Source of the DNA: Chitinivorax sp. B | GTDB taxonomy: Bacteria > Pseudomonadota > Gammaproteobacteria > Burkholderiales > SCOH01 | Length of the DNA stretch: 64,000 nucleotides | Direction of reading: 5' to 3' | Assembly (NCBI RefSeq): GCF_005503445.1 | Contig: NZ_SCOH01000003.1 | Span: 62,001 to 126,000 of the forward strand | Shown: one piece after another, positions 23,339-42,084 of the stretch | Layout: each line of letters starts with the position of its first letter | Numbering within the stretch: the first letter of the stretch is position 1 | Notes under the pieces: model-generated | The model's database searches: none | Told to the model about the DNA's origin: nothing | Seen by the model: only the letters and a program-made list of their open reading frames with translations | Program-made: the position numbers and the translations under genes

Positions 23339-23617
23339 TTATGCTGTACCCCGCTGCTCAAAACCCCTTAAATCTTCGGCCATTGCTTCTTCAACCTCCA
23401 CCCGGCTGACCAAGGCACCAGGCGGCCCACGATGGCACCATGCCAGCAAGGCGTCCACCGCTTCGCCATCACCTTGAATCATCGCCTCTACCTGCCCGCC
23501 CAGCAGATTACGTACCCACCCGTCGACACCAATAACGCCAGCCTGTCGGCAAGTTGCATAGCGAAATCCAACACCTTGAACCTTTCCGTGGATCGTTACT
23601 CTGACGGCCTTGTTCAT
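23339..23617 (-). CDS. acyP: Acylphosphatase
   Basis: Small enzyme (92 residues) that hydrolyses acyl phosphates. The signature VQGVGFRYATC holds the phosphate-binding Arg19, and GWVRNLLGG holds the catalytic Asn37. The ATG overlaps the stop of the hybrid histidine kinase by 4 bases (ATGA), so it is translationally coupled to that kinase. Length and motifs are complete. Confidence 0.94.
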   Translation of the reverse strand: MNKAVRVTIHGKVQGVGFRYATCRQAGVIGVDGWVRNLLGGQVEAMIQGDGEAVDALLAWCHRGPPGALVSRVEVEEAMAEDLRGFEQRGTA

Positions 23618-26600
23618 GATGTCCTCTGCTCAGCAAGCAATCCTGCTCGAATATCTTTCTCGCTGTCGATCAGACCATCCAGCATCTGGATTTCCAGATT
23701 GAGCCTGACCAAATAGTAAGCGCAATTGTCAGTCAAGTGATTCCTGGCAGCCAGTTCCAGTTCTTTGCAGTTATCTGCCACACGACTGGCACCAATTTGC
23801 GCAGCTGAGCCTTTTAAACGGTGTGCAGAACGTACCAATCGGTCCCAGTCCCTTTCGCCCAGCGACACTTCAATCTGTGGCATCACCTCCGCAACCGCCT
23901 GGCGGTACAAATCTATCAATTGCGGAACAATGTCGTCACCCAATACCGACGCCACCTCATCCAGAGCCTTACGTAGAGATATACGATCTTCATCCGGATC
24001 GTCACCAGAATCAGCAACCGTACTCACGGCTTGCGGCCCGTTGATCGGTGCCAATACAGCCAATTCGGGAATCCACTTGACCATGACTTGTTGTAATGCG
24101 TCTGCCGTGATTGGCTTGGTGAGAAAATCGTTCATCCCCGCGGCCATACAAGCCTGACGGGTAGATTCGAACACGTTTGCAGTCAACGCCGAAATTGGTG
24201 TCAGTACACCGGCGGCGCGAATACGCCTAGCTGCTTCGATCCCGTCCATCACAGGCATCTGTCCATCCATCAGGATCAGATCGTACGCATATTGTGTGGC
24301 AGCAGACACGGCCTGCTCCCCATTCTCCACCACATCCACACGACACCCCATTTTTTCCAGCATCAGCACAACAACTCGTTGATTGACCACATTGTCTTCC
24401 GCCACCAGTATTGTATGTTTGGCATCCACCCTCCGCTCGGCCAAGGTTTGTGATGTCACCATCGCAGCATCCCCACCACCCTCTGGTGACAGGACCGCCC
24501 GCAGACATGCAGCCAACTGCTCTACCCGAACCGGTTTCACGAGATAGGCAGCGAAATGCGCCTGCCTGGCTTCTTTACCCTGCCCCCGCCAAGCCAGTGA
24601 CGACAACATGATCATGGGCAAGGATCGAAACCGTTCCTCCGCACGAATCCTTTCTGCCAGCTCAATGCCAGTCATATCCGGTAGCTGGTAATCGACAATC
24701 ACACAGTCAAAGCCCATTTCTGATTGCTTCAACACTTGCAAAGCCTGAATGGCATCGCCCACTGGCGTGGCGACAATACCCAGATCACGAAGCATGGCCT
24801 GCAACATTTGACGCAAACTGGGTGAACGCCCGCACAGCAATACCTGTCGACCAGCCAGCCCCACTTCCGGGATAGCAGGCGGAGTGACCTCCGATGCCAT
24901 ACCCAGCGATACTTCGAACCAAAATGTCGACCCCTTGCCGGGTCGGCTATCGGCCCCCATATCGCCTTGCATGGCTTCAGCCAAACGCTTGGATATGGAT
25001 AAACCCAAACCCGTACCACCATAACGACGGGTCATCGATGCATCCGCCTGGGTAAACGGATGAAATAGACGATTGATGACCTCTCGCTCAATACCAATAC
25101 CGGTATCAATCACAGATACACGAATCCGGAAGCTTTCTGGTGTTGCGTCCATCAATGCCGCCTGTACCTGGATTTCGCCTTGCTCGGTAAATTTCACTGC
25201 ATTACTGATCAGATTGAGCAGAATCTGCCGGATCCTGCCTGGATCACCATTGACGCGGCGCGGCAACTCGGGCTGCGTCAACATGATCAGCTCCAGCTTC
25301 TTATCAGCAGCCTTGGTTGCCACCATCCCCAACACATCATCAAAGAGCCGGCGCAGATCGAAATCGATCAATTCCAGTTCCAGCCTGCCAGCTTCAACCT
25401 TGGAAAGATCCAGCATGTCGTTGATCAGCCGCATCAGCACATCCCCAGCATCGCTGATGGACTTCACGTAGCCATATTGCTCTTCGCTCAAACGGGTATC
25501 CATCAGTAAGGTGGTGAACCCCAGCACAGCATTCATTGGTGTACGGATTTCGTGGCTGATGTTTGCCAGAAATTCTGTCTTGGCACGATTGGCAGCCTCT
25601 GCATCAGCACGGGCCTTGGACAGCAGCTCCTCGCGCTGCTTACGCTCGGTGAAATCATCGACGATCCAGATCGTCCCTTTTGTCGAGTCCCCCGGATCAA
25701 CAGCCTGCCCCAACAGCCTCGCCCAGAACCGGCTGCCATCCTTGCGGCGAACCCAAAGCTCCCGCTCTAACATCCCACCGGCTGGCAATACCGCTGCGGC
25801 TACCCGGCCCACTTCGTCATACGCTGACTGGCTGTCATAAACCAGCGAACCGGATTGACCTTCGATTTCAGATCGCTCATAGCCCAGCATATCCAGCAAT
25901 TTGGCACTGCAATGGCGAAAGACTCGGTTGACCGTCAAGGCAATGCCAACACTGGCATTATTGAAGATGACATCGTGCATGTTCAGCATGTCTTGCAATA
26001 CCGCTTCGCGGGCCATCATCTCATCGATATCCAGGTGGGTTCCAATCGCCCGCAAAGGCTTGTTGTCGGCTGACCGTTCAATCACCTGGCCAGTATCGCG
26101 TATCCACTTCCACTCGCCGGACTTGGTGCGTAAACGCTGATCACATTGATACATCGGCGTCTTGCCCGAAAAATGAGCCTCCAACGCGGCATGGGCCTTT
26201 GGCAGATCATCCCGGTGGACAAGATTTTCCCAAGTTGATAGCTCCGGCGTGACCTCATCCAGACGATAACCAAGCTGAGCTGCCCATTGCTCGTTGTAGA
26301 CCACGGTATTGGTTTGAATATTCCAGTCCCACAAACCCAGACCAGTTGCTGACAATGCCAATGCCAAACGTGCCTCGCTGGCACGGGCCATTTCCGTTAA
26401 TTTGGCCGCACGTGCCACAGCAGCCTTTTCGGTGCGCTGGAGCGCCCAGATCACACCAGCCAGCAACAATCCCATGGCTATACCCAGCACTGCCACCCAA
26501 TTGGGCGATTTCAATTGAAGCTGGCTGACAAAACGGGGCGAGCCGGCAATGGCCACTTGCCAAGTGCGGCCACCAATTTGAATATCGCGCCGCATTGTCA

Positions 26601-27456
26601 GATCGATATCCCCCCATATACTCACAAAACTGGTATGCGTAATGCCAGTCACGCCATCCGAGTCATACACAATACCCAAACGACCACTGCTCCCCCCCGT
26701 ATCGCTGATGCTGACATCCAGGCCAGGTGCCAATGTTTTTTCCAACCCACTCAGCACACCATCGATACGGACTGGAACATACGCCCACCCCCAAATGGCC
26801 TGCTCTCGCTGGGTGGGCGTGTCATGTGGCCTACCTGGCTGATAAATCGGCAGCATGAACAAAAAACCCGGCATTCGAGCCTCGTCCTGCATTAGCGTCA
26901 CCGGGGCTGACAACACCACTGAACCGGATCGCAACGCCTGCAAGGCCGCCGCATGACGCAGCGGCTCCGATGCAATGTCCAATCCCAACGCTGCTTGATT
27001 ACGGGCCAGTGGCTCAATGGCAAAGATAATGAAGTGCGGCCCTGCATGGGCATTCAGCTGGCGAATCCTGATTGGCTGACCATGCTCACGAGACCAGCGC
27101 AGCAGAAAAACATCCCGATCAGACGCATTGACAAATCGAATTACGCCATATCCCAGCGCCCCAGGAAATTCACGAGCCAGATCACGCGAGGCGAGATATC
27201 GTCGTAAGGCCAACAGCGTTACCTGATCAGGATCATGGATAAATTGGCCTGCCATGCCACGCAAACCATATTCATAACGACCCATCCGGTTTTCAACTTG
27301 GTTCGCAAACCGGGCAACTGCATCCTGAAGGCTATCTGCCACAACTTTCTGGTTGTTGCGCGCAATCAACCAAGCAGCCATACCACTCAGCGTAAGGCTT
27401 AACAAGATGACTGCAATCGGCAACAGTGGTGACAGTCTCTGGAACAGTTTGCTCAT
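23614..27456 (-). CDS. Hybrid sensor histidine kinase with CHASE, PAS, two receiver and HPt domains
   Basis: Unorthodox phosphorelay kinase of 1280 residues. It starts with a membrane helix (about 8-30) and a periplasmic CHASE-type sensor (FANQVENRMGRYEYGLRGMAGQF and following, to about 300), with a second helix near 325-345. Two PAS/PAC segments cover about 360-600. The HisKA box NISHEIRTPMNAVLGF has its His near 636, followed by an ATPase domain with GTGLGLSISKRL. Receiver 1 has Asp near 922 (IVDYQLPDMTG), receiver 2 near 1065 (ILMDGQMPVMDG), and HPt His lies in SAHRLKGSAAQIG near 1213. No dedicated output regulator is adjacent. CHASE domains often bind small adenine-like or peptide ligands, but the ligand here is unknown. 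Confidence 0.93.
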   Translation of the reverse strand: MSKLFQRLSPLLPIAVILLSLTLSGMAAWLIARNNQKVVADSLQDAVARFANQVENRMGRYEYGLRGMAGQFIHDPDQVTLLALRRYLASRDLAREFPGALGYGVIRFVNASDRDVFLLRWSREHGQPIRIRQLNAHAGPHFIIFAIEPLARNQAALGLDIASEPLRHAAALQALRSGSVVLSAPVTLMQDEARMPGFLFMLPIYQPGRPHDTPTQREQAIWGWAYVPVRIDGVLSGLEKTLAPGLDVSISDTGGSSGRLGIVYDSDGVTGITHTSFVSIWGDIDLTMRRDIQIGGRTWQVAIAGSPRFVSQLQLKSPNWVAVLGIAMGLLLAGVIWALQRTEKAAVARAAKLTEMARASEARLALALSATGLGLWDWNIQTNTVVYNEQWAAQLGYRLDEVTPELSTWENLVHRDDLPKAHAALEAHFSGKTPMYQCDQRLRTKSGEWKWIRDTGQVIERSADNKPLRAIGTHLDIDEMMAREAVLQDMLNMHDVIFNNASVGIALTVNRVFRHCSAKLLDMLGYERSEIEGQSGSLVYDSQSAYDEVGRVAAAVLPAGGMLERELWVRRKDGSRFWARLLGQAVDPGDSTKGTIWIVDDFTERKQREELLSKARADAEAANRAKTEFLANISHEIRTPMNAVLGFTTLLMDTRLSEEQYGYVKSISDAGDVLMRLINDMLDLSKVEAGRLELELIDFDLRRLFDDVLGMVATKAADKKLELIMLTQPELPRRVNGDPGRIRQILLNLISNAVKFTEQGEIQVQAALMDATPESFRIRVSVIDTGIGIEREVINRLFHPFTQADASMTRRYGGTGLGLSISKRLAEAMQGDMGADSRPGKGSTFWFEVSLGMASEVTPPAIPEVGLAGRQVLLCGRSPSLRQMLQAMLRDLGIVATPVGDAIQALQVLKQSEMGFDCVIVDYQLPDMTGIELAERIRAEERFRSLPMIMLSSLAWRGQGKEARQAHFAAYLVKPVRVEQLAACLRAVLSPEGGGDAAMVTSQTLAERRVDAKHTILVAEDNVVNQRVVVLMLEKMGCRVDVVENGEQAVSAATQYAYDLILMDGQMPVMDGIEAARRIRAAGVLTPISALTANVFESTRQACMAAGMNDFLTKPITADALQQVMVKWIPELAVLAPINGPQAVSTVADSGDDPDEDRISLRKALDEVASVLGDDIVPQLIDLYRQAVAEVMPQIEVSLGERDWDRLVRSAHRLKGSAAQIGASRVADNCKELELAARNHLTDNCAYYLVRLNLEIQMLDGLIDSEKDIRAGLLAEQRTS

Positions 27457-27692
27457 TTAACCTGCCGCGCACAACATGATCGAATGGGGGACGCTGTCCC
27501 GACTGACGATACGCGAGGCTCCATAGCGGCATGAGCCGTGAAACGATGTCATCGGTACTTGGCAATGTGGTGGTGGTCATCATATGTTGGCACCATTTAA
27601 TGCGGTATAGACCATCTGTACCGATTTCGCGGCAAGCCTTGCACCCGCTATAATGGTCGGTCTTTCGTGCAACACATTCAATGAGAACTGCC

Positions 27693-29738
27693 ATGTCCGA
27701 TAAACGCAAGATTCTGGTGACCTACGCCCTACCCTACGCCAACGGAAGCATCCACCTAGGCCATATGGTCGGCTACATCCAAGCCGACATCTGGGTTCGG
27801 TTCCAGAAGATGCGGGGGCATGACTGCCACTATGTCTGCGGTGACGATACCCACGGTACGCCAATCATGATCAACGCTGAGAAACAAGGGCTCCAGCCTG
27901 AGGATTTCATCGCCAAGATGTATGACGAACACGTGGCTGACTTCGCCGGTTTCCACATTGGTTTCGATAACTACTCGCACACCAATACGCCAGAAAACCG
28001 CGAAATCGCCTACAACATCTATCGGCGCCTGAAAGACAACGGCAAGATCGCCAATCGTGTAATCCGCCAACTGTACGATCCAGAGAAGGGCATGTTCCTG
28101 CCTGATCGTTTCGTCAAAGGTGAATGCCCCAAGTGCCACGAAAAGGAGCAATACGGTGACAACTGTGAAAAATGCGGCACCACTTACAGTCCAACCGAAC
28201 TGATCAATCCCTATTCAGTGGTATCGGGTGCTACACCGGTAATGAAGGAGACCGAGCACTACTTCTTCCGACTGACCGAATGTGAAGACTTCCTGAAGGG
28301 TTGGACACGTGAAACCGGACGCTTGCAACCGGAAGCCAGCAACAAGATGCAGGAATGGTTTGAAGCCGGCCTGCAGGATTGGGACATCACCCGCGACGCC
28401 CCTTACTTCGGTTTCGAGATCCCAGATGCACCGGGCAAGTATTTCTATGTCTGGCTGGATGCACCGATTGGCTACATGGCATCCAGCAAGTTGTTGATGG
28501 ATCGCTTGGGCCGTGACTGGCTGGAGTTCTGGGGTAAGGATAGTGATGCCGAGCTGTATCACTTCATCGGCAAGGACATTCTGTACTTCCACGCACTGTT
28601 CTGGCCTGCCGTATTGGAATACGCTGGCTTCAAGACACCCAATGCAGTGAATGTGCACGGCTTCCTGACCGTCGATGGCGCTAAGATGAGCAAGTCGCGT
28701 GGCACCTTCATCACCGCCGGCAGCTACCTGAAGCTAGGCTTGAATCCAGAATGGCTGCGTTACTACTATGCGGCCAAGCTGAACAGTCGTATTGAAGACG
28801 CGGATCTGGCCCTGGACGACTTCGTCAACCGTGTCAATTCCGACTTGGTCGGCAAGTTTGTCAACATCGCCAGCCGTGCAGCTGGTTTCCTGAACAAACG
28901 TTTCGGCGGCACACTGGCCGATAGCCTCCCGGAATCCGAACTGCTGAAATCCCTGCAGGTGGCTGGCACCGAAATTGCCGAACTTTACGAAGCCCGTGAA
29001 TACAGCCGTGCGCTACGTGAAGTAATGGCACTGGCGGATCTGGCCAATCAGTACGTTGACGAGCAAAAGCCGTGGGAACTGGCCAAACAGGAAGGCATGG
29101 ATACCAGGCTGCATGAGGTGTGCACCACTTGCATCAACCTGTTCCGCCTGCTGACCATCTATCTGAAACCGGTGCTACCCAAGCTGGCCGAACAGGTGGA
29201 GCAGTTCCTGAACGTCAAGCCGCTGACTTGGGAGGATTCCAAATCACTGCTGCTGGGCCATACCATCAACCCATACCAGCATTTGATGACGCGTATCGAC
29301 TCCAAGCAAGTCGATGCATTGGTCGAAGCCAACAAGCAGAGTCTGGCACCTGCCGCCACTGTAGAACCGGTAGCAGCAGTCGATCAAAGCTACGAAACCA
29401 TTGGTGAGACCATTTCGATTGACGATTTCAGCAAGGTCGATCTGCGTGTCGCCAAGATCGTCGATGCCAAGGCGGTAGAAGGTGCAGACAAACTGGTACA
29501 GCTGACATTGGATATCGGCTCGGAAACCCGGAATGTGTTTGCCGGTATCAAATCGGCCTACAAACCGGAAGACCTGAAAGGTCGCCTGACTGTCATGGTG
29601 GCCAACTTGGCACCCCGCAAGATGAAGTTTGGCTTGTCGGAGGGCATGGTGCTAGCAGCCAGCTTTGAAGACAAGGGCTCCGGTCTTTTCATTCTAAGCC
29701 CGGACAGCGGCGCGCAACCAGGCATGCGCATCCGCTAA
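27693..29738 (+). CDS. metG: Methionyl-tRNA synthetase
   Basis: Charges tRNA-Met. Class I signature [16 protein letters not shown] near the N-terminus, a four-Cys zinc knuckle ([17 protein letters not shown]), the KMSKS loop [12 protein letters not shown], the anticodon-binding domain, and a C-terminal Trbp111-type domain ([16 protein letters not shown]). At about 681 residues it is the long dimeric form. The frame opens at 27681, but the conserved start [17 protein letters not shown] favours the ATG at 27693. Confidence 0.96.
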
Positions 29739-29759: not shown

Positions 29760-29794
29760 AGCAACCCGTCAATGTGCTCGTTCGACGGGTTGCT
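29760..29794. terminator. Hairpin between metG and the luxR-type gene, probable terminator
   Basis: AGCAACCCGTC (29760-29770) pairs perfectly with GACGGGTTGCT (29784-29794), an 11-bp stem with a 13-base loop, 22 bases after metG. No T-run follows, so termination may be rho-assisted. Confidence 0.55.
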
Positions 29795-30974
29795 AGTCCC
29801 CTGAATCCAATCCTTTCTCATCTTCTACCACGCCGAGTCGAGCAGCCTGCTCGCTACTTATGGCAGGAAGATGCAGCAACAACCGTGTCAGATCAGCCTG
29901 CCGATTGGTGCCGGTTTTGCGAAACAGTTTTTTCAGATGAGACACAACCGTGCTGCGTGCCACTGTCAGCGACAATGCAATATCATTGGGAGTTTGCCCG
30001 GCAAGAATGCGTTCTGCCACCTGTTTTTCGCTACGGGTGAAACCGTACAACCGTCCGGCAATTTCCATACGCCCTTCAAGCTGATAACTCGGATCACTCA
30101 ACATCACCAACACACCTTGTGTGTCAATGGCAGCACCTTTTGGCAGGGACATCAAGACCAACTGGTAAAACATATTGCCGTCACGCCTGGCAACCAGATA
30201 TGCAGCAGATTCGTCCAATAGTGCCGCACGCTCGGTGCGAGCCAATTTACTGACAGTCGTCTTGAAACGGCTGTTCAGTGACGATTCGCGAAACTGCAAA
30301 TGTTGGTCATGACATCGTAAATTACTTGATTGATTCAGCATCCGCTCAAAAGCGGGGTTGGCGAACTGAACAACAGCATCCACATCGAGTAATGCAATAC
30401 CAATATCCCAGCATGCCAAACAATGACAAAGCACCTCATTCAATGCCATCTTGAAATGCAACTGCTGCCCCAATCGAATTGCACGCTCAATATGTGGCCT
30501 CAGTTGCAGCATTTGCTCAACGATCGTAGGATCAACCCCCCCTTCGGATCTGGGCACCGAGGCCCCCATTAGTACCGTTGTATTGGGATCATGAATCACG
30601 CGAATTCCCGCGCTGTAAAAAAGATTCATTCTTGATAAAAAATCACGATAAAACGGCGTATTGGAAAATACCTCGTCAGAAATATACTCACGTTGATCAT
30701 AGGAAGCCAAGGTGGATTGATTCAACAGCGCCTGAACTCTAACATCCTGGGATAAAAAGTTGTCGATATAATTATCAACGTCTTGAAGTGGATACTTACT
30801 TTCAATAACCAGCCTTGGCCTCTGCCCCTTATTGAGAATCAGCAAACCTGCCGACATCTGGTTCTGTCTTTTTGAAAAATCCGTCACAAAATCGTGAAGT
30901 CGTTCTGGACAAGCTACACTGTCATACAACGCCTCAATCAATTGTTCATTATTCTGATGTAATTCGTGCCACAT
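29793..30974 (-). CDS. LuxR-type HTH transcriptional regulator with PAS-like sensor region
   Basis: 393-residue regulator. The C-terminal HTH at about 320-380 has the LuxR pattern LYGFTRSEKQVAERILAGQTPNDIALSLTVARSTVVSHLKKLFRKTG. The central part contains a PAS-like segment (GIALLDVDAVVQFANPAFERML), and the first 180 residues form an unrecognised sensor domain. It is not a classical acyl-homoserine-lactone LuxR, which is about 250 residues with an autoinducer domain. The ATG at 30974 with GAGG 8 bases before it was chosen over 30995. It is divergent from a LuxI-like acyltransferase gene across an AT-rich gap and probably controls it. Confidence 0.87.
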   Translation of the reverse strand: MWHELHQNNEQLIEALYDSVACPERLHDFVTDFSKRQNQMSAGLLILNKGQRPRLVIESKYPLQDVDNYIDNFLSQDVRVQALLNQSTLASYDQREYISDEVFSNTPFYRDFLSRMNLFYSAGIRVIHDPNTTVLMGASVPRSEGGVDPTIVEQMLQLRPHIERAIRLGQQLHFKMALNEVLCHCLACWDIGIALLDVDAVVQFANPAFERMLNQSSNLRCHDQHLQFRESSLNSRFKTTVSKLARTERAALLDESAAYLVARRDGNMFYQLVLMSLPKGAAIDTQGVLVMLSDPSYQLEGRMEIAGRLYGFTRSEKQVAERILAGQTPNDIALSLTVARSTVVSHLKKLFRKTGTNRQADLTRLLLHLPAISSEQAARLGVVEDEKGLDSGD

Positions 30975-31284
30975 AGATAACCTCGCCGCCAGCACAGCCC
31001 TGTATCTGAACTATCCCACTCATTCAAGCAGTGAATTAAGAACTAGGCCAAGACAAAAATATAGAATCAAAATTTAATTATTTACTTCATTATTACACAG
31101 GCCATCACACACCAACACCGCGACACTCAAAACAGATTTTACTTACATTTAATTTTAAATATACGAATATATGCAATATGTAAACTATAAGTTTTTATCG
31201 CTCAATAAATATCAACAAAACCATCATTTAAATTCATCCAAAAACATCTATAAATTCAAGATAAGTAGCTTTGGATGACACATT
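30975..31284. other. AT-rich divergent promoter region (310 bases)
   Basis: Strongly AT-rich compared with the flanking genes. It must hold the promoters of the luxR-type gene and of the acyltransferase gene. TTACAT near 31140 and ATGTAA near 31180 form a loose inverted pair. I found no classical lux box and no GG-N10-GC sigma-54 promoter on either strand. Confidence 0.6.
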
Positions 31285-32010
31285 ATGGCTTCGCCCCCAA
31301 TGTATGATATATTTTTTAGCCGTTATTTCTATTTTGGAAAAATAGACAACACACCACTCTTGCAAGAAAGCTTTAAACTCCGCTACCAAGTCTATTGCCT
31401 GGAAAAAAATTTCTTATCCGCTTCACATTTTGAAAATGGCAAGGAATGTGATCGCTATGATCGGGATTCGGTCCATTTTGCAGCCATCGATCAATTTGAA
31501 CAGGTGGTCGGTACCATTCGTCTTGTAGGTGAACATACTCATCGCTACCCACTGCAGGAACACTGCCAACTCAGCATCCCTGCCATTCCTCATTCAGCCG
31601 TCGAAATATCACGCTTAGCGGTCAGTAAAAACTATCGTCGCCGTGCCAGCGACGATGATTATGGTGCCAGCAATGACTACGTATCCATGCCAGTCCATGT
31701 GAAGGAAAGCAATGCACGCATGCGTCCGGAAATTGTCATGGGGCTGTACAAAGCTGTATTCCAGTGCTGCCGGCAACATCAGATCAAATACCTGCTGGCT
31801 GCAATGGAAAGCGGTCTACTCAGGTTATTAAACCGCATGGGGATGGGCTTTATGCCAATCGGCCCTGAGGTGGACTACTATGGCCCCGTCAGGCCTTACA
31901 TGCTATCAATTGACGAATATGAACGAAGCCTACGGGTGATGCGCCCCGATTTACATGAGGAATTCTTCGTCAATGCAGACTTTCAATCTTTGCAACAGCC
32001 AATTCAGTAG
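31285..32010 (+). CDS. LuxI-like acyltransferase, PEP-CTERM/exosortase-associated type
   Basis: 241-residue protein resembling the 'PEP-CTERM/exosortase system-associated acyltransferase' family, a branch of the autoinducer-synthase-like GNAT fold. LuxI-pattern residues are kept: R33 in FKLRYQVY, D56 and D59 in CDRYDRD, R79 in VGTIRLV, and E107/R110 in VEISRLAV. The rest (VMGLYKAVFQCCRQHQIKYLLAAMESGLLRLLNRMGM) is typical of the exosortase-associated branch. Known LuxI enzymes join an acyl group to S-adenosylmethionine; whether this branch does so is not established. It is followed by a PaaK-like ligase and lies near PEP-CTERM genes. The start is uncertain because the ribosome site is weak (TTTGGATG). 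Confidence 0.85.
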   Translation: MASPPMYDIFFSRYFYFGKIDNTPLLQESFKLRYQVYCLEKNFLSASHFENGKECDRYDRDSVHFAAIDQFEQVVGTIRLVGEHTHRYPLQEHCQLSIPAIPHSAVEISRLAVSKNYRRRASDDDYGASNDYVSMPVHVKESNARMRPEIVMGLYKAVFQCCRQHQIKYLLAAMESGLLRLLNRMGMGFMPIGPEVDYYGPVRPYMLSIDEYERSLRVMRPDLHEEFFVNADFQSLQQPIQ

Positions 32011-32196
32011 CCAGCAAAGCAAATGATTCATGCTGATCATCAGATCGTGATGGCCAGATCAAGACATCAGGACTGTTGCGCATCCCCCGTCGGCACGCAA
32101 TAACCGCATAAGCACTAACCTGAAACGGTTCATCAGAGCGAAACCATTGACATCGATCTGCTTCCATTCATTTCATTCCAAACGAGGAGACAGTCC

Positions 32197-33627
32197 ATGA
32201 AAACCTTCGCATCCGAACAGGAGAAAGCCAGTCGCAAAGCCTTTCTGGCATCACTATGTGAGACCCCCCCCGACCAACTACTGAAGAATTCAGAGCAGGA
32301 GTCAATTGCCGCATTTAACAGGGCGCTGAAATGCGTGCCAGCCTTTGCAAAATTGCTGCAACAACATGGTCAACCAACTTCACCCATCGATTCAATTGAT
32401 GCATTTTTGAGCAGAGCCCCTCTACTCAACAAGCACAACACGTTTGGTCAATTTCCAATACATGAGCTTTGTGTCGATGGTCATCTGGAAGGTGTTCGAT
32501 CGTTGCTGACCAGCTCTGGCCACTCGGGCGTGTTTTCCTTCGGTGTGAATACCGCCACCAATCTGGACAACTCATCGAAATCGATCGACGCCGGCTTACA
32601 ATACCTGTTCAACATCGATGAACTCAGTACGCTGGTCATCAATGCCTTGCCGATGGGCGTAAAAGTACACACACGCTCTACAGTGCTGGCAGAGACCAGT
32701 GTCCGGGACGACATGGTCTACGCCTTGATCCAACGCTTTGCTGGTGAGTTTGATCAAGTCGTCATGATTGGAGAAGGTTCATTCCTAAAACGCATCATTG
32801 AGGATGGCCGGGATCAACATGGCATTGATTGGCCAACATTACGCGTTCATCTCGTCACAGGCGAAGAAGGCATTGCCGAAAATTACCGTAGCTACATTGG
32901 GACTCTGCTTGGCATCAGTGAATTTGACCAACCAGGCGGTAAACTCATCATGTCATCAATGGGTGTTGCCGAACTCGACCTGAATATCTTCCATGAAACA
33001 CCCCACACAATCCGAATGCGACGACTGGCTCATGAAAACGCCGCACTCCGTAAGGCGCTATTTCATATTGACACGCCATTCTGCCCAATGCTCTTCATGT
33101 ATTACCCTCATCGTTGCTATGTAGAAACACGCAATGTTGGAGCCACTTGGCCCGAAATCGTCATTTCAATGCTTAGCCCGGAAATGAAGTTGCCGCTACT
33201 CCGTTACTGCTCTGGGGACTATGGCAATATCTTCCGCCACGACGAGTTACTGGGCTTACTGGCGCGGCATGACATCCATATCAAGCCGGACCTGAAATTA
33301 CCCTTCGTCGCTGTCTATGGGCGAGGTAAAGCACTACAGACCACATCGGGGCCACTTTACCCGGAAGCTGTAAAGGAGGCGATTTATGCTGAGCCGGCCA
33401 TTGCTGAAACGCTAACCGGTAATTTCCGACTGACCGGCACCAATACCATCGGACGACTCGATCTACAGTTAAGGCATGGCAAAAACCTATCAAATCGGAT
33501 GTTGGATAATCTGCACGGACACCTTGCCAAATATTCGCCCACACAACCCGAAATCTTCATGCATGCTTATTCTTCGTTTCCGTATGGTATGGAAATCGAC
33601 TTTGAACGGAAATTTGCCTATCTCTGA
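32197..33627 (+). CDS. PaaK-like adenylate-forming enzyme (phenylacetate-CoA ligase family)
   Basis: 476-residue protein with the fold marks of acyl-adenylating enzymes: a glycine/serine P-loop LLTSSGHSG at 103-111, HLVTGEE at 219-224, SSMGVAELD at 253-261 and the A8-type core RYCSGD at 336-341. The C-terminal lysine subdomain is short and its catalytic Lys is not obvious. Best family guess is PaaK or coenzyme F390 synthetase-like. GAGGAGACA precedes the ATG well. It follows the LuxI-like acyltransferase by 186 bases in the same direction. It could make the acyl-adenylate or acyl-CoA used by that enzyme; this is inference, and the substrate is unknown. Confidence 0.78.
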   Translation: MKTFASEQEKASRKAFLASLCETPPDQLLKNSEQESIAAFNRALKCVPAFAKLLQQHGQPTSPIDSIDAFLSRAPLLNKHNTFGQFPIHELCVDGHLEGVRSLLTSSGHSGVFSFGVNTATNLDNSSKSIDAGLQYLFNIDELSTLVINALPMGVKVHTRSTVLAETSVRDDMVYALIQRFAGEFDQVVMIGEGSFLKRIIEDGRDQHGIDWPTLRVHLVTGEEGIAENYRSYIGTLLGISEFDQPGGKLIMSSMGVAELDLNIFHETPHTIRMRRLAHENAALRKALFHIDTPFCPMLFMYYPHRCYVETRNVGATWPEIVISMLSPEMKLPLLRYCSGDYGNIFRHDELLGLLARHDIHIKPDLKLPFVAVYGRGKALQTTSGPLYPEAVKEAIYAEPAIAETLTGNFRLTGTNTIGRLDLQLRHGKNLSNRMLDNLHGHLAKYSPTQPEIFMHAYSSFPYGMEIDFERKFAYL

Positions 33628-33741: not shown

Positions 33742-34638
33742 CTATCGACGACGTAACAAATGCCCGACGCCAAACAATCCAAGTGCCAACAGCATGATGC
33801 TACTCGGCTCCGGTACCTGTTTCACGTTACCGAGGATCGGATCATTATTGAAACCGCCCCACCCATTCTTAGCAGCTCCATCCGCAGGATCCAGGGCAAT
33901 CAAGGTATTCATTGCATGGAAATCGGACAGGCCTCCATTCTGGCCCTTGGTGTTAAACATCGAGCATGCGATACCTGCAACACAACTGGCATAGAAGGCG
34001 GCCTTACCGGATGCAGGTAATGTATCATTCGTTACATCCTGAAACATTGTACTCAGCCGTTCATCAAATTGCGTACTCGAATCGTCATTAGGTACGATAC
34101 CGACATCAAACACCAAGCTGATCAATAAGGTCCCATCCGTTATACCATTTAGCTTGTTAAAAGCTGTGCGATCAGATGCTTTCAGGCCGTTTGCGCTAGT
34201 AAAACTTGGATTGGTCCCACCTTTATCTGTTGTTTTATCCAGATAGAAATCCAGATGAATTTTTCCATCACAACCAAAGCTGACATTGCTGCACCCTGTG
34301 TTGTAAATATTCTTACCAAAAGATCCGCCTTGCGTGATACTTGCATCCGACACACCATAAATCATGTATGAGATCGTTTCATTATTATTGCCAGATTGCC
34401 AGAAATATTTTGTCGGGTCATCCCTGCTTTTGATCTGATCAAGATAGCCTGCACCAAATACACTCTCACGTCCAGAGCCTGCATTTCCGGCCCCACCATC
34501 CTGGCTGTTTGCAGTATAACCTCCAAATTTCATAACAAATGGGCCAAATCCATTCAATGCAAACGCATTCGCACTCGGCATCAATGCCACCAATGCCGTA
34601 CCGGCAGCCAATATTTTCATGTACTGACACAGCTTCAT
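33742..34638 (-). CDS. PEP-CTERM sorting domain-containing surface protein
   Basis: 298-residue exported protein. The N-terminus has a signal peptide (KILAAGTALVALMPSANAFA), and the C-terminus has the sorting signal VPEPSSIMLLALGLFGVGHLLRRR split as the VPEP motif, a membrane helix and a basic tail. The middle is Asn/Gly/Ser-rich with four or more Cys and no catalytic motif. AGGAGG lies 5 bases before the ATG. PEP-CTERM proteins are processed by exosortase and decorate the outer surface or matrix. A sigma-54 promoter candidate lies upstream. Confidence 0.92.
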   Translation of the reverse strand: MKLCQYMKILAAGTALVALMPSANAFALNGFGPFVMKFGGYTANSQDGGAGNAGSGRESVFGAGYLDQIKSRDDPTKYFWQSGNNNETISYMIYGVSDASITQGGSFGKNIYNTGCSNVSFGCDGKIHLDFYLDKTTDKGGTNPSFTSANGLKASDRTAFNKLNGITDGTLLISLVFDVGIVPNDDSSTQFDERLSTMFQDVTNDTLPASGKAAFYASCVAGIACSMFNTKGQNGGLSDFHAMNTLIALDPADGAAKNGWGGFNNDPILGNVKQVPEPSSIMLLALGLFGVGHLLRRR

Positions 34639-38039: not shown

Positions 38040-39113
38040 CTAGCGTGTCGGACGCCACCGGGTGATCAACATCATTCCCAATCCGATCAACAACGCTGTA
38101 GAGGGAATGGGCACATCGCTGAATCGACGAATCGACCATTCCTCAAACCCTGCATCAGAGCCGTAAGTCAACGATTTAGCCTTACTACCGAGCGCACCGT
38201 TGGGTGTTTGGCAAGGAGAGCTCTTGTTGGCAGCAACCGTACACTTGCTTCCGGTCTCACCAAACTTCGAGTAGAGATAGACGAAACTGTCAGCGGTATA
38301 CCCCGCAAAGTTGCTCACTGGAACCAACGCCTGTAGATCCACACCCTTGCCACTGCCACTGAAATTCGTGTAATCCATCAGCAACGAGGCATCGCCACCC
38401 GGAATGTTATCCATGTCATACACTTCCGTCGCACCATCGCATAACTTGAACGTGCCATTCGGGCTGGTATCTGGGGCACAACCTGCATCGGTTACCGAAT
38501 TACTGAGAATGTCCCCTTTACCGGCAACATACAGCTTGAACGAGTCCAACGACAAACCGGAATTCTCGTTACCCTCTTCATTCATATCCAGCAGAAATTC
38601 ATAGTATTGCTGGCAATTGGTACCTGTGGAACCTCCACCATCGCACACGGTGATTTTGGGGATTTGACCCAGCGTGATCGAATGATTCCAGTTGCTGTCA
38701 CCTTTGTCGTGGTTATCCAGAATCGTACCGTTCCCTGGCGGGCTGGTTCGACCATCGGTATTGAAACCCTGCTCGCTGCAGTTAGGTTGACACTTCGCAT
38801 AACCTTTACTGGTCTGGATGCGAACAAACGGATCAAACACACCCGTGCCCACCACCATGCCCCCCAACGTACCATCCGGATCAGGCACTCGGAAAATGCC
38901 TCCGTTAAGCATGACATTGGGTGGTGTCGTTTGTGTGCTGGACGGCGCCGCAGTCAAATCGAAATAGCAGGTGGTCAATACATTACCGCTGGCATCGAAC
39001 GTGCCCGGACAGGTGGAGCTGGATGGCGCACCAGCCATGGCAAACTGGGATACGCACCACACCAGCATGCTCACCACGCATTGCCTTAATATACGAAGGT
39101 ACGACTTGTTCAT
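38040..39113 (-). CDS. PEP-CTERM-like surface protein with VPIP sorting tail
   Basis: 357-residue exported protein. The ATG at 39113 starts a signal peptide (LRQCVVSMLVWCVSQFAMAGA); earlier in-frame codons give a non-secretory extension. The body has several Cys and Gly/Asn-rich loops. The C-terminus is DVPIPSTALLIGLG followed by a hydrophobic stretch and RWRPTR, a sorting signal with VPIP where the canonical form is VPEP. A sigma-54 promoter candidate lies upstream, and the gene is directly downstream of prsT. Whether VPIP is cut by the same exosortase is uncertain. Confidence 0.82.
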   Translation of the reverse strand: MNKSYLRILRQCVVSMLVWCVSQFAMAGAPSSSTCPGTFDASGNVLTTCYFDLTAAPSSTQTTPPNVMLNGGIFRVPDPDGTLGGMVVGTGVFDPFVRIQTSKGYAKCQPNCSEQGFNTDGRTSPPGNGTILDNHDKGDSNWNHSITLGQIPKITVCDGGGSTGTNCQQYYEFLLDMNEEGNENSGLSLDSFKLYVAGKGDILSNSVTDAGCAPDTSPNGTFKLCDGATEVYDMDNIPGGDASLLMDYTNFSGSGKGVDLQALVPVSNFAGYTADSFVYLYSKFGETGSKCTVAANKSSPCQTPNGALGSKAKSLTYGSDAGFEEWSIRRFSDVPIPSTALLIGLGMMLITRWRPTR

Positions 39114-39151
39114 GGCGCCTACCCTTGCTCTGCGGTTGACTCTCATACATA

Positions 39152-39167
39152 AGCATATTTTGCACCA
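39152..39167 (-). promoter_or_regulatory. Sigma-54 promoter candidate of the second PEP-CTERM gene
   Basis: On the minus strand TGGTGCAAAATATGCT has the GG-N10-GC spacing and a good -24 TGG and -12 TGCT, though it departs from consensus in between. Predicted start near 39142, 29 bases before the start codon. Confidence 0.55.
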
Positions 39168-39279
39168 ACACAAAAAACCTTTGTTTTCAATAAGTAAATT
39201 CCATATAAATAATTCGGAATGTAAGATATACCGACATCCATATCTAGAAAATGATTCTGTACCGCTTGAACTTACCAAA

Positions 39280-42084
39280 TCAGTTACGGAGCTGGCTCAA
39301 CAACTTTTCTGCCTCAGTCCGCTCAGGGAAGTCGCGCTGCATTTTCGACAGTCGTTCCAGCTCATCACGAGCCTGTGCCTTCTCCCCTGTCTGCAAGTAC
39401 GCCTGTACCAATTGATATCGAGTAGATGGGGAATCGGGTGCCACTTCCACCGCTTTACGCAACAGTGCTACCACCCGTTCATGCTTACCAACCCGCGTCA
39501 GCATGTCAGCCAAGTCCTGCAGGGCCAACGGATGAGTTGGCGCCTGCTGATGAGCGGCCTCCGCCACTGCCAACGCCTTGGCTTCATCAAATTGCCGATA
39601 ACACTGGATCAGATTGTGCAGAACCCCAAGATTGTCCGGCTGCTGCTTGCGTATCAGTTCATATTGCGCCGCTGCCTCCTGAAATTGCTGACGCTTGATG
39701 GCGGTATCCGCCACATGCATGCGCACTTGCATGTCGTCAGGATGGGTCGTCAACCAGGTATTCATCAGCCGGTCAGCCTCCACGGCACGATTATCCTGAC
39801 GCAATGCTGATTGCCACTTGATCAATGACGCAGAGTCTGGTTGCCGCCGATGTGCCTGCTCGAATGCAACTGCAGCTTGCCGATAGCGCTTGTCCAACAT
39901 CCGTGCATCCCCTTCGGCCAAAAAACCGACCGGTGAAGTCGGCAAACGCTTTTGCACTTGCGCGGCCAACTGAATAACCTCGGCCACCTTGTTTGCCTTC
40001 AACTGTAACGCCACCAAAGCTGTTAACGCCTCCGGAAATGCCGGATCAATGGCCAGTGCTTTCTTCAAAGACATCTCTGCCCCTGCAAAATTGATGGCAG
40101 CCGATTGGGCCAGTGCCAACCCATAATAGGCCTGTGCAGATTTCGGATTCAAAATGATCAAACGGGAATAGCTCGACATCGCTTCCGGATGGCGGCCTGT
40201 CTGTAACTGGGCGAAGGCCAGCTTGCTCAACGCTTCAGCATGTTCTGGCGCCAACTTCAGCGCAGCCTCCAACATCGGTATGGCACGCTCGTAGTCACCT
40301 GCGCCAAACAGCAGACTGGCCTGCGCGTAGATCGGCTTCAAGCCTCCAGGTTGTGCCGCACTGGCCCGCTCCAACCAACGCAGTGCATCGTCACGTTTGC
40401 CGGCGGCGATTTCCAGATCAGCCAACGCAAGCATCGCATCCACATTCCCCGCATCCAAAGCAATTACTTTTTGCAATCGGCTACGGGCCAATCCAACCTC
40501 CCCAAGCCGGCTATCCAACTGCGCCAGATTCAATGCTGCCGGCAAATAGGCCGGCTGAATAGCTAAAGCCTGTTCAAAGGCAGCACGGGCTCCTGACACA
40601 TTATGCTGCGCCAGCAGAATTGCGCCCTTCAGATTGTAGGTCAAGGCGCGCCTTGGGTTCACCTGCTCCATCCGGGCAACGGCTTTCAATGCCTGATCAT
40701 ATTGCCCGGCAGATAACAATGAACTCGCCAGCAAGGCATCTGGCGACTGCCCCGCCCCATTGGCAATTGATGCCAGGTCATTCAGGGCTCGCTGTGTATC
40801 GCCAGCCATTAACCTGGTCAGCCCCAGATTGGTTTTAACCTGTTTGTTGGTTGGCGATTTCGCCATTGCCAATTCCAGAAACTGAGCGGCTTTGTCCAGA
40901 TCCTTGGCCTCCAGATAGGCCTCCCCCATCAGGCTCAGCACACGCACATCGGCGGGATCCGCCTCACGCAACTCAGTCAGTATTGCCAGTGCTTCACGTC
41001 CACGGTGATGACGAATCAGTACCGCCGCCAACAGTTTTCGCAGCTGATGGTTATCCGGTTCGCGTGACAAGGCTTGCTGCAAAAGCCGTTCTGCGCCGGT
41101 GAAATCACCAGTCGCGCTGGCCAGCATCCCCGCCAATGCAGTCCCCGGCAAATGACTCGGCGCCAACTTAAGAACTTGCCTCACCCCGGCCTCGGCTGCG
41201 GCGATATCGCCACGACGGTAATCGAGTAAAGCCTGAAAGTACCAGGCCATCGGGTTTTCCGGTGCTATCTTGCGCAAGGCTTCAACATGCTTGCGGGCAT
41301 CGTCGGTACGATTACTCAGCAAATAGATCGATGCCAGATTCAAATTGACCGGTACGCTGTAAGGCGACAACGCATAGGCTTTCAGATAACTGCCTAAAGC
41401 AGCCTCTGCCTCGCCATCACGATGCTGGGTATCCGCCAGCATCAACAATGCATCCAGACTTTGTGGATTGGCTGTGGCCGCCTGACGGATCAGGCTGGAT
41501 GCCACTGCAGGTTCGCGACGAGCAGCGGCCAATCGGGCTTTGCCAAGCAAAGCTTCCGCATGGTCGGGTTGCCGTTTCAATGCGTGATCGAACGACGCTG
41601 CCGCTTCGTCATTGTTACCCAGCGATGCATAGGCATGCCCACGCATCGCCAGTATCGGCGCAGTCAGTACCAGCTCACCATGATCACTGGAACGGGTTTC
41701 CTCCAGCAATTTGTCGAATTGCCCTTGCTTGAACAGCGTTTCCGCCAATAGTGGAATCACCGCCGTCTTGTCATAACCCGCCTTCAGTGCCATGCGAAAC
41801 TCTTTCTCGGCGGCACGTGGAGCATTCATCTGCCGGTAGATCATCCCCAGGGTATAACGAGCCTCGGCATGGTTCGGCTCCTTGTCCAGCAGATTGCGCA
41901 GCTCGATAATGGCAGCACGTGTATTCCCCTGATCACGGTCTTGCTTGGCCTTGGTCAATACATCCACAGGGGCAGAAGGTGTTTTGTTGCACGCGGCCAA
42001 CGGCATCAACAATAGCGCTGCCAGCAACCCGATACAGGAACCAAGCCTGATGACGCGGGGGAATGAGGTGATGGTCACGGACAT
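39280..42084 (-). CDS. prsT: PEP-CTERM system TPR-repeat lipoprotein PrsT
   Basis: 934-residue lipoprotein. Signal with lipobox LMPLAACNK (Cys about 32), then more than 15 tandem TPR units, for example AEARYTLGMIYRQMNAPRAAEKEFRMALKAG, and AYYGLALAQSAAINFAGAEMSLKKALAIDP further on. Length and repeat number agree with PrsT, which travels with exosortase loci and is thought to act in matrix/exopolysaccharide export or assembly. No exosortase or EPS gene lies in the window, so here it seems to be a satellite of that locus. A generic TPR lipoprotein is the alternative. Confidence 0.88.
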   Translation of the reverse strand: MSVTITSFPRVIRLGSCIGLLAALLLMPLAACNKTPSAPVDVLTKAKQDRDQGNTRAAIIELRNLLDKEPNHAEARYTLGMIYRQMNAPRAAEKEFRMALKAGYDKTAVIPLLAETLFKQGQFDKLLEETRSSDHGELVLTAPILAMRGHAYASLGNNDEAAASFDHALKRQPDHAEALLGKARLAAARREPAVASSLIRQAATANPQSLDALLMLADTQHRDGEAEAALGSYLKAYALSPYSVPVNLNLASIYLLSNRTDDARKHVEALRKIAPENPMAWYFQALLDYRRGDIAAAEAGVRQVLKLAPSHLPGTALAGMLASATGDFTGAERLLQQALSREPDNHQLRKLLAAVLIRHHRGREALAILTELREADPADVRVLSLMGEAYLEAKDLDKAAQFLELAMAKSPTNKQVKTNLGLTRLMAGDTQRALNDLASIANGAGQSPDALLASSLLSAGQYDQALKAVARMEQVNPRRALTYNLKGAILLAQHNVSGARAAFEQALAIQPAYLPAALNLAQLDSRLGEVGLARSRLQKVIALDAGNVDAMLALADLEIAAGKRDDALRWLERASAAQPGGLKPIYAQASLLFGAGDYERAIPMLEAALKLAPEHAEALSKLAFAQLQTGRHPEAMSSYSRLIILNPKSAQAYYGLALAQSAAINFAGAEMSLKKALAIDPAFPEALTALVALQLKANKVAEVIQLAAQVQKRLPTSPVGFLAEGDARMLDKRYRQAAVAFEQAHRRQPDSASLIKWQSALRQDNRAVEADRLMNTWLTTHPDDMQVRMHVADTAIKRQQFQEAAAQYELIRKQQPDNLGVLHNLIQCYRQFDEAKALAVAEAAHQQAPTHPLALQDLADMLTRVGKHERVVALLRKAVEVAPDSPSTRYQLVQAYLQTGEKAQARDELERLSKMQRDFPERTEAEKLLSQLRN

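Follow-up and report, generated by a model that had tools for sequence, protein, structure and literature searches.

N-acyl amino acid synthases (NAS) were reportedly tied to the PEP-CTERM/exosortase system by Craig, Cherry and Brady in 2011, as related in papers that cite them. This link is already known, and the name of the family model TIGR03694 derives from it. The present analysis concerns a NAS-type acyltransferase of this family and the adenylate-forming enzyme beside it (LIG), encoded in a stretch of 64,000 nucleotides from Chitinivorax sp. B (contig NZ_SCOH01000003.1, positions 62,001 to 126,000; hereafter the window). The functional unit at this locus is best taken to be the NAS-LIG pair and not a three-gene module that includes the adjacent LuxR-type regulator.

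PMC4897644 describes relatives of the window synthase that make long-chain N-acyltyrosines with Glu103 as the catalytic residue, can use the acyl-acyl carrier proteins (acyl-ACPs) of E. coli as donors, and have a cellular role called unclear; PMC9762135 describes relatives that make N-acyl ornithines and lysines. According to both, NAS alone yields free N-acyl amino acids in E. coli. Methylomonas LW13 lost a distinct polysaccharide band and growth in a gradient syringe when a gene annotated as a NAS of the PEP-CTERM system was disrupted, and complementation reversed the loss (PMC11072679). An earlier note on this DNA had called the product of the exosortase-associated branch unknown, which is incorrect in view of the characterised relatives (PMC4897644, PMC9762135). 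The product class is established for these relatives; for the NAS branch of the window we infer it by analogy only.

The locus and its acyltransferase

Three open reading frames (ORFs), read in the earlier note as a regulator, an acyltransferase and an adenylate-forming enzyme, were confirmed at the following positions:

29793..30995, minus strand: LuxR-type regulator, 400 aa from GTG, likely ATG start at 30974; domains are a probable diverged LuxR-type ligand domain (about 10-180), a PAS-like domain (about 195-300) and a GerE helix-turn-helix (HTH) domain (319-372)
30975..31284, no strand: intergenic region between the divergent regulator and synthase
31285..32010, plus strand: NAS-type GNAT acyltransferase, TIGR03694 exosort_acyl, catalytic Glu assigned by motif to E107
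32197..33627, plus strand: LIG, PaaK-fold adenylate-forming enzyme; fold predicted, no Pfam or NCBIfam match of its own

The window acyltransferase matched TIGR03694 with 191.1 bits (cut-off 111.95), which places it in the exosortase-associated branch, as had been proposed. PF13444 and the FeeM family PF21926 gave 55 and 39 bits, respectively. PF00765 (Autoind_synth) was reached with 24.6 bits (cut-off 24), far under the enzyme's own NAS score, and the NCBIfam models of acyl-homoserine lactone (AHL) synthases were not reached, the best being TraI with 11.9 bits against a cut-off of 250. A six-frame PF00765 search of the same genome gave no match, the same search having recovered 0 of 14 controls.

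Residues R33, E54, D56, D59, R79, E107 and R110 were invariant in all 61 aligned NAS, the window enzyme included. The LuxI core residues to which attention had been drawn before (R33, D56, D59, R79, E107 and R110) are thus present, but they are not diagnostic of LuxI, because they are common to NAS enzymes. E107 sits within an ExSRL motif in this alignment, and by our reading of the motif it would correspond to Glu103 of the characterised NAS.

A predicted PaaK-fold partner enzyme

For window LIG, the best Pfam match had an E-value of 0.19, no NCBIfam match was better than E 0.11, and the PaaK equivalog gave none in NCBIfam at E 0.01. Among 37 LIG members, the NCBIfam PaaK models were matched by 30-31 (best E 1.3e-10), TIGR02155 being matched by 30 with that same best value. 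LuxE was matched by one of the 37 in NCBIfam, and Pfam gave a single weak LuxE match only. When a 37-row LIG profile was compared with PDB sequences, a PaaK-family chain was reached at E 4e-12 and LuxE at E 0.0019.

An AlphaFold model of LIG built from five sequences had a mean pLDDT of 73.8 and a pTM of 0.80, with pLDDT below 50 at residues 94-118 (P-loop included) and in the tail, 467-476. The best Foldseek rows for this model were of the PaaK family (BT_0428 at E 4.9e-18, PaaK1, NatL2 and AjiA1), and alignment with PaaK1 (2y27; VIA-align) gave a Z of 25.3 with 388 residues aligned at an rmsd of 3.8.

Conservation was pronounced at several positions. SSG 106-108 and E259 were kept in 38 of 38 sequences, D341 and K472 in 37 each and R336-Y337 in 37-38, while R376 (or K) fell within the range of 33-38. 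The residue that follows the P-loop SSG, at position 109, was H in 22 and Q in 11 of the 38. SSG and RY-D aligned to PaaK by profile comparison; E259, R376 and K472 presumably belong to the ANL adenylation motifs. By its predicted fold and kept catalytic residues, LIG is a PaaK-fold enzyme, in keeping with the earlier naming of the third gene as a PaaK-like adenylate-forming enzyme, and it would adenylate a carboxylic acid with ATP.

In Thiocapsa sp. KS1 (locus L051, 9785-11415), LIG is spread over two overlapping ORFs, with a frameshift either in the gene or in the assembly, and this split locus was left out of the LIG alignment.

Pairing of NAS and LIG across genomes

An earlier scan of contigs with a single LIG sequence found no relative, whereas a five-row alignment, used as the sole query, gathered 33 loci from the species collection; five other loci brought the number to 38. 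By their titles, the 33 loci belong to Pseudomonadota, Acidobacteria, Omnitrophota, Opitutaceae, Archangium, Desulfuromonadales and KSB1. Many are contigs of metagenome-assembled genomes, and some of the taxon labels may be wrong.

NAS was present in 30 of the 33 loci, in 27 of them at 600 bp or less from LIG. The 27 include L030, whose NAS is a fragment at the contig end. In the remaining three the distance was 0.9-4.9 kb (0.9 kb in L045; 4-5 kb in L047 and L050, with the exporter described below between the genes). No NAS was found in L024, L028 and L035, the first of which extends only 0.4 kb upstream and 1.6 kb downstream of LIG. The 30 pairs comprised 17 tandem NAS-LIG, one LIG-NAS, six divergent and six convergent arrangements, and the called ORFs overlapped in 5 of the 17 tandem pairs. 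Since four arrangements were seen, adjacency survives rearrangement. All eight acyltransferases scanned, from 8 of the 30 loci, passed the TIGR03694 cut-off.

In a sample of 200 genomes of the order, TIGR03694 was over cut-off in 25 and LIG was found in five, all among these 25 (a profile search agreed), with each LIG adjoining NAS. The acyltransferase and the adenylate-forming enzyme thus stand as a real and widely conserved pair, as had been suspected. In a sample of the phylum, LIG was matched in 9 of 398 genomes: two matches were strong (the window genome and G020), two were remote, and five short partial ones of 19-23 bits were set aside. The two remote relatives, L091 and L092 (145 and 89-91 bits), had no NAS within 19 kb; they may show the ancestral context of LIG. 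In L009 and L023, LIG has a synthase copy on either side.

A separate branch of NAS from LIG loci

A single branch (SH-aLRT 95) of a 61-sequence NAS tree separated the 40 sequences that come from LIG loci from 21 whose loci lack LIG; this division took one change, compared to 17.5 in shuffles. Matches below 55 bits, hence the L030 fragment, were left out of this tree; from the long ORFs of L042 and L046 only the last 270 residues were used. Position 202 was V in 39 of the 40 sequences from LIG loci and R in 19 of the 21 others. NAS and LIG divergences correlated with r 0.78 (n = 33), and none of 5000 permutations was as high; L030, L051 and the three loci without NAS were left out of this comparison.

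A NAS fusion in Acidobacteria was considered for the long ORFs of L042 and L046 and rejected. The upstream part of L042 had no Pfam match, and similarity between the two upstream parts was limited to short pieces (best 45 residues, E 1e-4); both are probably over-long ORFs rather than fusions.

Genes around the pair

PEP-CTERM genes were found near 17 of the 33 LIG loci, compared to 1 of 13 control regions (20 were requested, 4 did not exist and 3 of the remaining 16 were too short). The raw pattern count was 22 of 33, from which L032, L034, L042, L046 and L051 were removed by eye as spurious. The half of the earlier proposal that spoke of surface modification linked to PEP-CTERM fits these counts.

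A LolA-like gene together with an ABC ATPase was present in 9 of the 33 LIG loci and in 2 of the 5 further ones; among 20 NAS loci that lack LIG, 7 had this combination. The 13 control regions held no LolA-like gene, an ABC ATPase alone in five cases and an FtsX permease in one. In clusters of the Rhodocyclales type, of which one representative of each gene was scanned, the order was an epimerase (named by eye), LolA_like (PF17131), ABC ATPase, DUF1302-like barrel, NAS, LIG, PEP-CTERM protein, two FtsX/MacB permeases and a sugar transferase. The Omnitrophota loci L031, L047 and L050 carried a rearranged set with a different barrel-like protein that had no Pfam match over cut-off; L050 holds an exosortase, with relatives in L031 and L047 by clustering.

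The exporter was also tried as a partner of LIG and rejected in this role, as it accompanies NAS without LIG too. LolA_like, ABC and FtsX genes stood near TIGR03694 synthases lacking LIG in L095, L096, L102, L103, L106, L108 and L109, and the DUF1302-like barrel was found in six of these seven, indicating a wider synthase-exporter association. The exporter is therefore regarded as the partner of NAS, with LIG as an addition.

A protein with AMP-binding, ACP and PlsC domains was found beside the synthase in L031 (scanned) and, by clustering, in L033, L039, L047 and L050, which suggests O-acylation of the NAS product. Relatives of the sugar-transfer-associated ATP-grasp family PF14397 were seen near the pair in L009 (scanned), L010, L011, L024, L040 and L052; this protein is a possible further ligating enzyme of the pathway.

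Two other features of the window belong to the PEP-CTERM context:

33742..34638, minus strand: PEP-CTERM protein, convergent with LIG (Pfam/NCBIfam scan); a homologue with 57% identity occupies the same place in L008, the same-genus locus used for comparison with the window
39280..42084, minus strand: PrsT, the TPR protein of the XrtA/PEP-CTERM system (708 bits, cut-off 312)

The window genome has three exosortases, all on contigs other than that of the window. Positions 38040-39278 encode a secreted-looking protein of 412 aa with a hydrophobic tail and a basic C-terminus; its match to a PEP-CTERM family was sub-threshold, at 11.5 bits against a cut-off of 65. On the other side, a metG-like gene (27681-29738) adjoins the locus and is divergent from a large hybrid sensor kinase of 1280 aa (23614-27456). 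Both were named by eye, and both have homologues at the same place in L008.

The regulator and its intergenic region

The regulator probably starts at the in-frame ATG of codon 8 (30974), because a 62%-identical homologue from the same genus starts there; the promoter interval proposed earlier, 30975-31284, agrees with this start. Within the interval, promoter- and terminator-like matches were at shuffle level. A Lux-box-like operator was sought and not retained, as no inverted repeat was seen to be common to the intergenic regions of the window and L008.

The GerE HTH domain scored 32.9 bits (cut-off 23.5). Scanned with PF03472, the window regulator gave no match at E 1, and to this extent the earlier description of a regulator lacking the AHL domain was justified; an apparent remote homology to PF03472 speaks against it. 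With hhalign, a 28-row profile of the N-terminal part aligned to a 13-row PF03472 profile over 148 columns at 86.5% (E 4.6e-6); the controls, namely the PAS and HTH parts, gave 0.1-0.2%. The 28 rows derive from 37 matched ORFs, of which 33 with at least 340 aa were kept and duplicates removed; the PF03472 profile consists of 13 hand-picked proteins with strong matches from 30 loci. A near-full-length relative, L168, just passes PF03472 (23.3 bits, cut-off 23).

A structure model of the regulator (pLDDT 76.9, pTM 0.51) retrieved bacteriophytochromes first in Foldseek, followed by RhlR, VqmA, VqsR, PAS proteins and SdiA. A PDB sequence search with the N-terminal alignment returned no LuxR and two chance-level matches. 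This null result speaks against remote LuxR homology, in contrast to the fold search and the profile comparison, which favour it. One relative of the regulator was matched by GAF and PAS models. In the alignment to PF03472, Y76 and D84 are kept, while the Trp and Pro positions are occupied by D72 and V85, respectively; we take all four to be ligand-domain positions, the Trp one contacting the lactone. The N-terminal domain seems, by profile and model, to be a diverged or degenerate LuxR-type ligand domain missed by Pfam.

Co-occurrence of all three genes, on which the earlier idea of a signalling module turned, held for the pair and failed for the regulator. In a profile search, with which a single-sequence search agreed, a full-length relative of the regulator lay beside the pair in 2 of 38 LIG loci, the window and L008, both of the same genus, and a conserved three-gene signalling module was accordingly rejected. 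L028 had a partial match, mainly to the HTH, 7 kb from LIG, and none of the 20 NAS loci without LIG contained a relative. Across 150 genomes of the order, the regulator family was matched nearly over its full length 26 times, including the window's two and G032. The divergent arrangement of regulator and synthase was kept in both genus members seen, the window and L008.

Proposed role and alternatives

The NAS-LIG pair looks like an envelope-lipid pathway rather than a source of a quorum-sensing signal, because it often lies among surface-protein and lipid-export genes. By analogy with characterised relatives, NAS would use acyl-ACP or acyl-CoA as donor to acylate an amino acid at its amino group with a long chain. 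LIG would then adenylate the free carboxyl of the N-acyl amino acid, the substrate favoured here. Transfer to CoA, an amine or some other acceptor may follow, and a conjugated lipo-amino acid would result. The outer membrane or cell surface would be the destination of this product, which many lineages would bring there with a LolA-like carrier, a LolCDE/MacB-like ABC transporter and an outer-membrane barrel from the same gene cluster. At that site it would work together with PEP-CTERM proteins and exopolysaccharide. The LuxR-type protein would have been recruited, within the window's genus, as a local regulator. The proposal as a whole, from activation by LIG through export to local regulation, is put forward tentatively, at somewhat less than even confidence.

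The NAS product is favoured as the substrate of LIG for two reasons, namely that NAS can use E. coli acyl-ACPs (PMC4897644) and that Omnitrophota-type clusters have a separate fatty-acid ligase (L031 scanned). The neighbouring genes and the LW13 phenotype suggest that the product is exported and acts beside PEP-CTERM proteins and polysaccharide.

Several observations weigh against this proposal. Two other LW13 mutants showed the same phenotype as the disruption of the gene annotated as NAS (PMC11072679). LIG occurs without NAS within 10 kb on each side in L028, and within 5 kb and 10 kb in L035, and 20 of the 25 TIGR03694 genomes of the order have no LIG. The NAS tree is a quick tree in which the 21 NAS without LIG all come from one order, and the correlation of divergences is confounded by species relatedness. 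The exporter set is not at the window locus; a LolA_like search of the window genome found none, recovering 6 of 14 controls, and 24 of the 33 LIG loci had no LolA-like gene in the stretch searched, some stretches being short. Since the ABC ATPase alone and the FtsX permease also occurred in control regions (5 and 1 of 13), only the LolA-like gene and the whole set are telling. Finally, the solved PaaK relatives are annotated for aryl or small acids, and one of 37 LIG members matches LuxE, whose substrate is a fatty acid.

The opposite order, with LIG acting before NAS, is nearly as likely. LIG would here activate an unusual free acid (aryl, branched, hydroxylated or a salvaged fatty acid) to an acyl adenylate or acyl-CoA, serving as donor for the paired NAS branch, after the earlier note's analogy with aryl-homoserine lactone (aryl-HSL) systems, minus the homoserine lactone. 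This order is a serious possibility, if somewhat less probable than the first, favoured by the PaaK-family fold with closest solved enzymes annotated as activating aryl or small acids, by the LuxE-like matches of LIG, and by the residues peculiar to the LIG-locus NAS branch (V202 for R, W170 and Y159), which could form a donor pocket. The fatty-acid ligase/ACP protein already present in Omnitrophota-type clusters (L031 scanned) and the acceptance of ordinary acyl-ACP by NAS (PMC4897644) stand against it.

A signalling circuit confined to the window's genus is unlikely. The regulator would bind the NAS or NAS-LIG product and control the operon, an N-acyl amino acid taking the place of the lactone. 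The divergent arrangement in both genus members, the remote likeness of the N-terminal domain to Autoind_bind (the hhalign result and L168), the Foldseek matches to VqsR, RhlR and SdiA, and the retention of Y76 and D84, with D72 at the Trp position (roles as presumed above), are consistent with such a circuit. It is disfavoured by the rarity of the regulator beside the pair and its absence from the 20 NAS loci without LIG, by the 26 matches of its family in the order, and by the lack of a palindrome common to the window and L008. The PDB search without LuxR, the bacteriophytochromes at the top of the Foldseek rows, the GAF/PAS match of one relative and the pTM of 0.51 point the same way. In addition, the effects of the N-acyl tyrosine stieleriacine A1 in P. 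inhibens were for the most part independent of LuxR (PMC7293339).

That the product is a surfactant, a free N-acyl amino acid of the kind that NAS alone yields in E. coli (PMC4897644, PMC9762135), with LIG a linked housekeeping or catabolic CoA ligase outside the pathway, is very improbable, as NAS and LIG are found paired in several phyla and in four arrangements, and as one branch of NAS is tied to LIG.

Two bolder readings, both long shots, may be set beside the proposed envelope-lipid pathway. One is a LuxR-type circuit with an N-acyl amino acid instead of a lactone. In the other, a lipo-amino acid bearing an amine or a thioester would be made by NAS and LIG, delivered by the Lol-like exporter, and serve as the membrane or surface anchor to which exosortase-processed PEP-CTERM proteins are joined. 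Archaeosortase joins its targets to a lipid, which offers an analogy. If true, the anchor reading would supply the missing acceptor of the bacterial exosortase reaction in lineages with the pair.

For the role of NAS itself, the results provide two handles: a constant partner enzyme that curated families do not name, and a group of lipid-export genes that accompanies the synthase. Neither the ligase partner nor its NAS branch was found described in the open-licence literature, most subscription papers lying outside that search.

Comparison with known systems

Among Lol/MacB-like exporters, the NAS clusters share LolA_like (PF17131), FtsX/MacB_PCD permeases, an ABC ATPase and a barrel-type protein. 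LolB is a component of Lol systems; unlike these, the NAS clusters have a barrel in place of LolB, and the set is not found at the window locus. The stieleriacine (N-acyl dehydrotyrosine) cluster of Stieleria maiorica likewise has NAS with PEP-CTERM and exopolysaccharide genes nearby (PMC7293339); the word 'ligase' is absent from the main text of that paper, from which the likeness is drawn.

With LuxI/LuxR AHL and aryl-HSL circuits, the window shares a GNAT synthase core, a divergent LuxR-type regulator and a probable degenerate ligand domain. In contrast to them, its synthase scores as NAS, and its regulator carries a PAS-like domain in addition and does not accompany the pair across genomes.

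The PaaK-family AMP ligases (PaaK1/2, BT_0428, NatL2, AjiA1 and ClxA) resemble LIG in fold over nearly the full length, as predicted, and in the possession of SSG, E, RY-D and a terminal Lys. The structural alignments gave only 13-17% identity, LIG is about 40 residues longer than PaaK1, and the T that comes after the P-loop SSG in PaaK is replaced by H in 22 and by Q in 11 of 38 LIG sequences.

The closest likeness of the window synthase is to NAS of the TIGR03694/FeeM PF21926 type, in scores over cut-off, the E107 motif, the core residues and the PEP-CTERM neighbourhood. Unlike the known exosortase-associated NAS, those from LIG loci branch separately and have a ligase as their constant partner.

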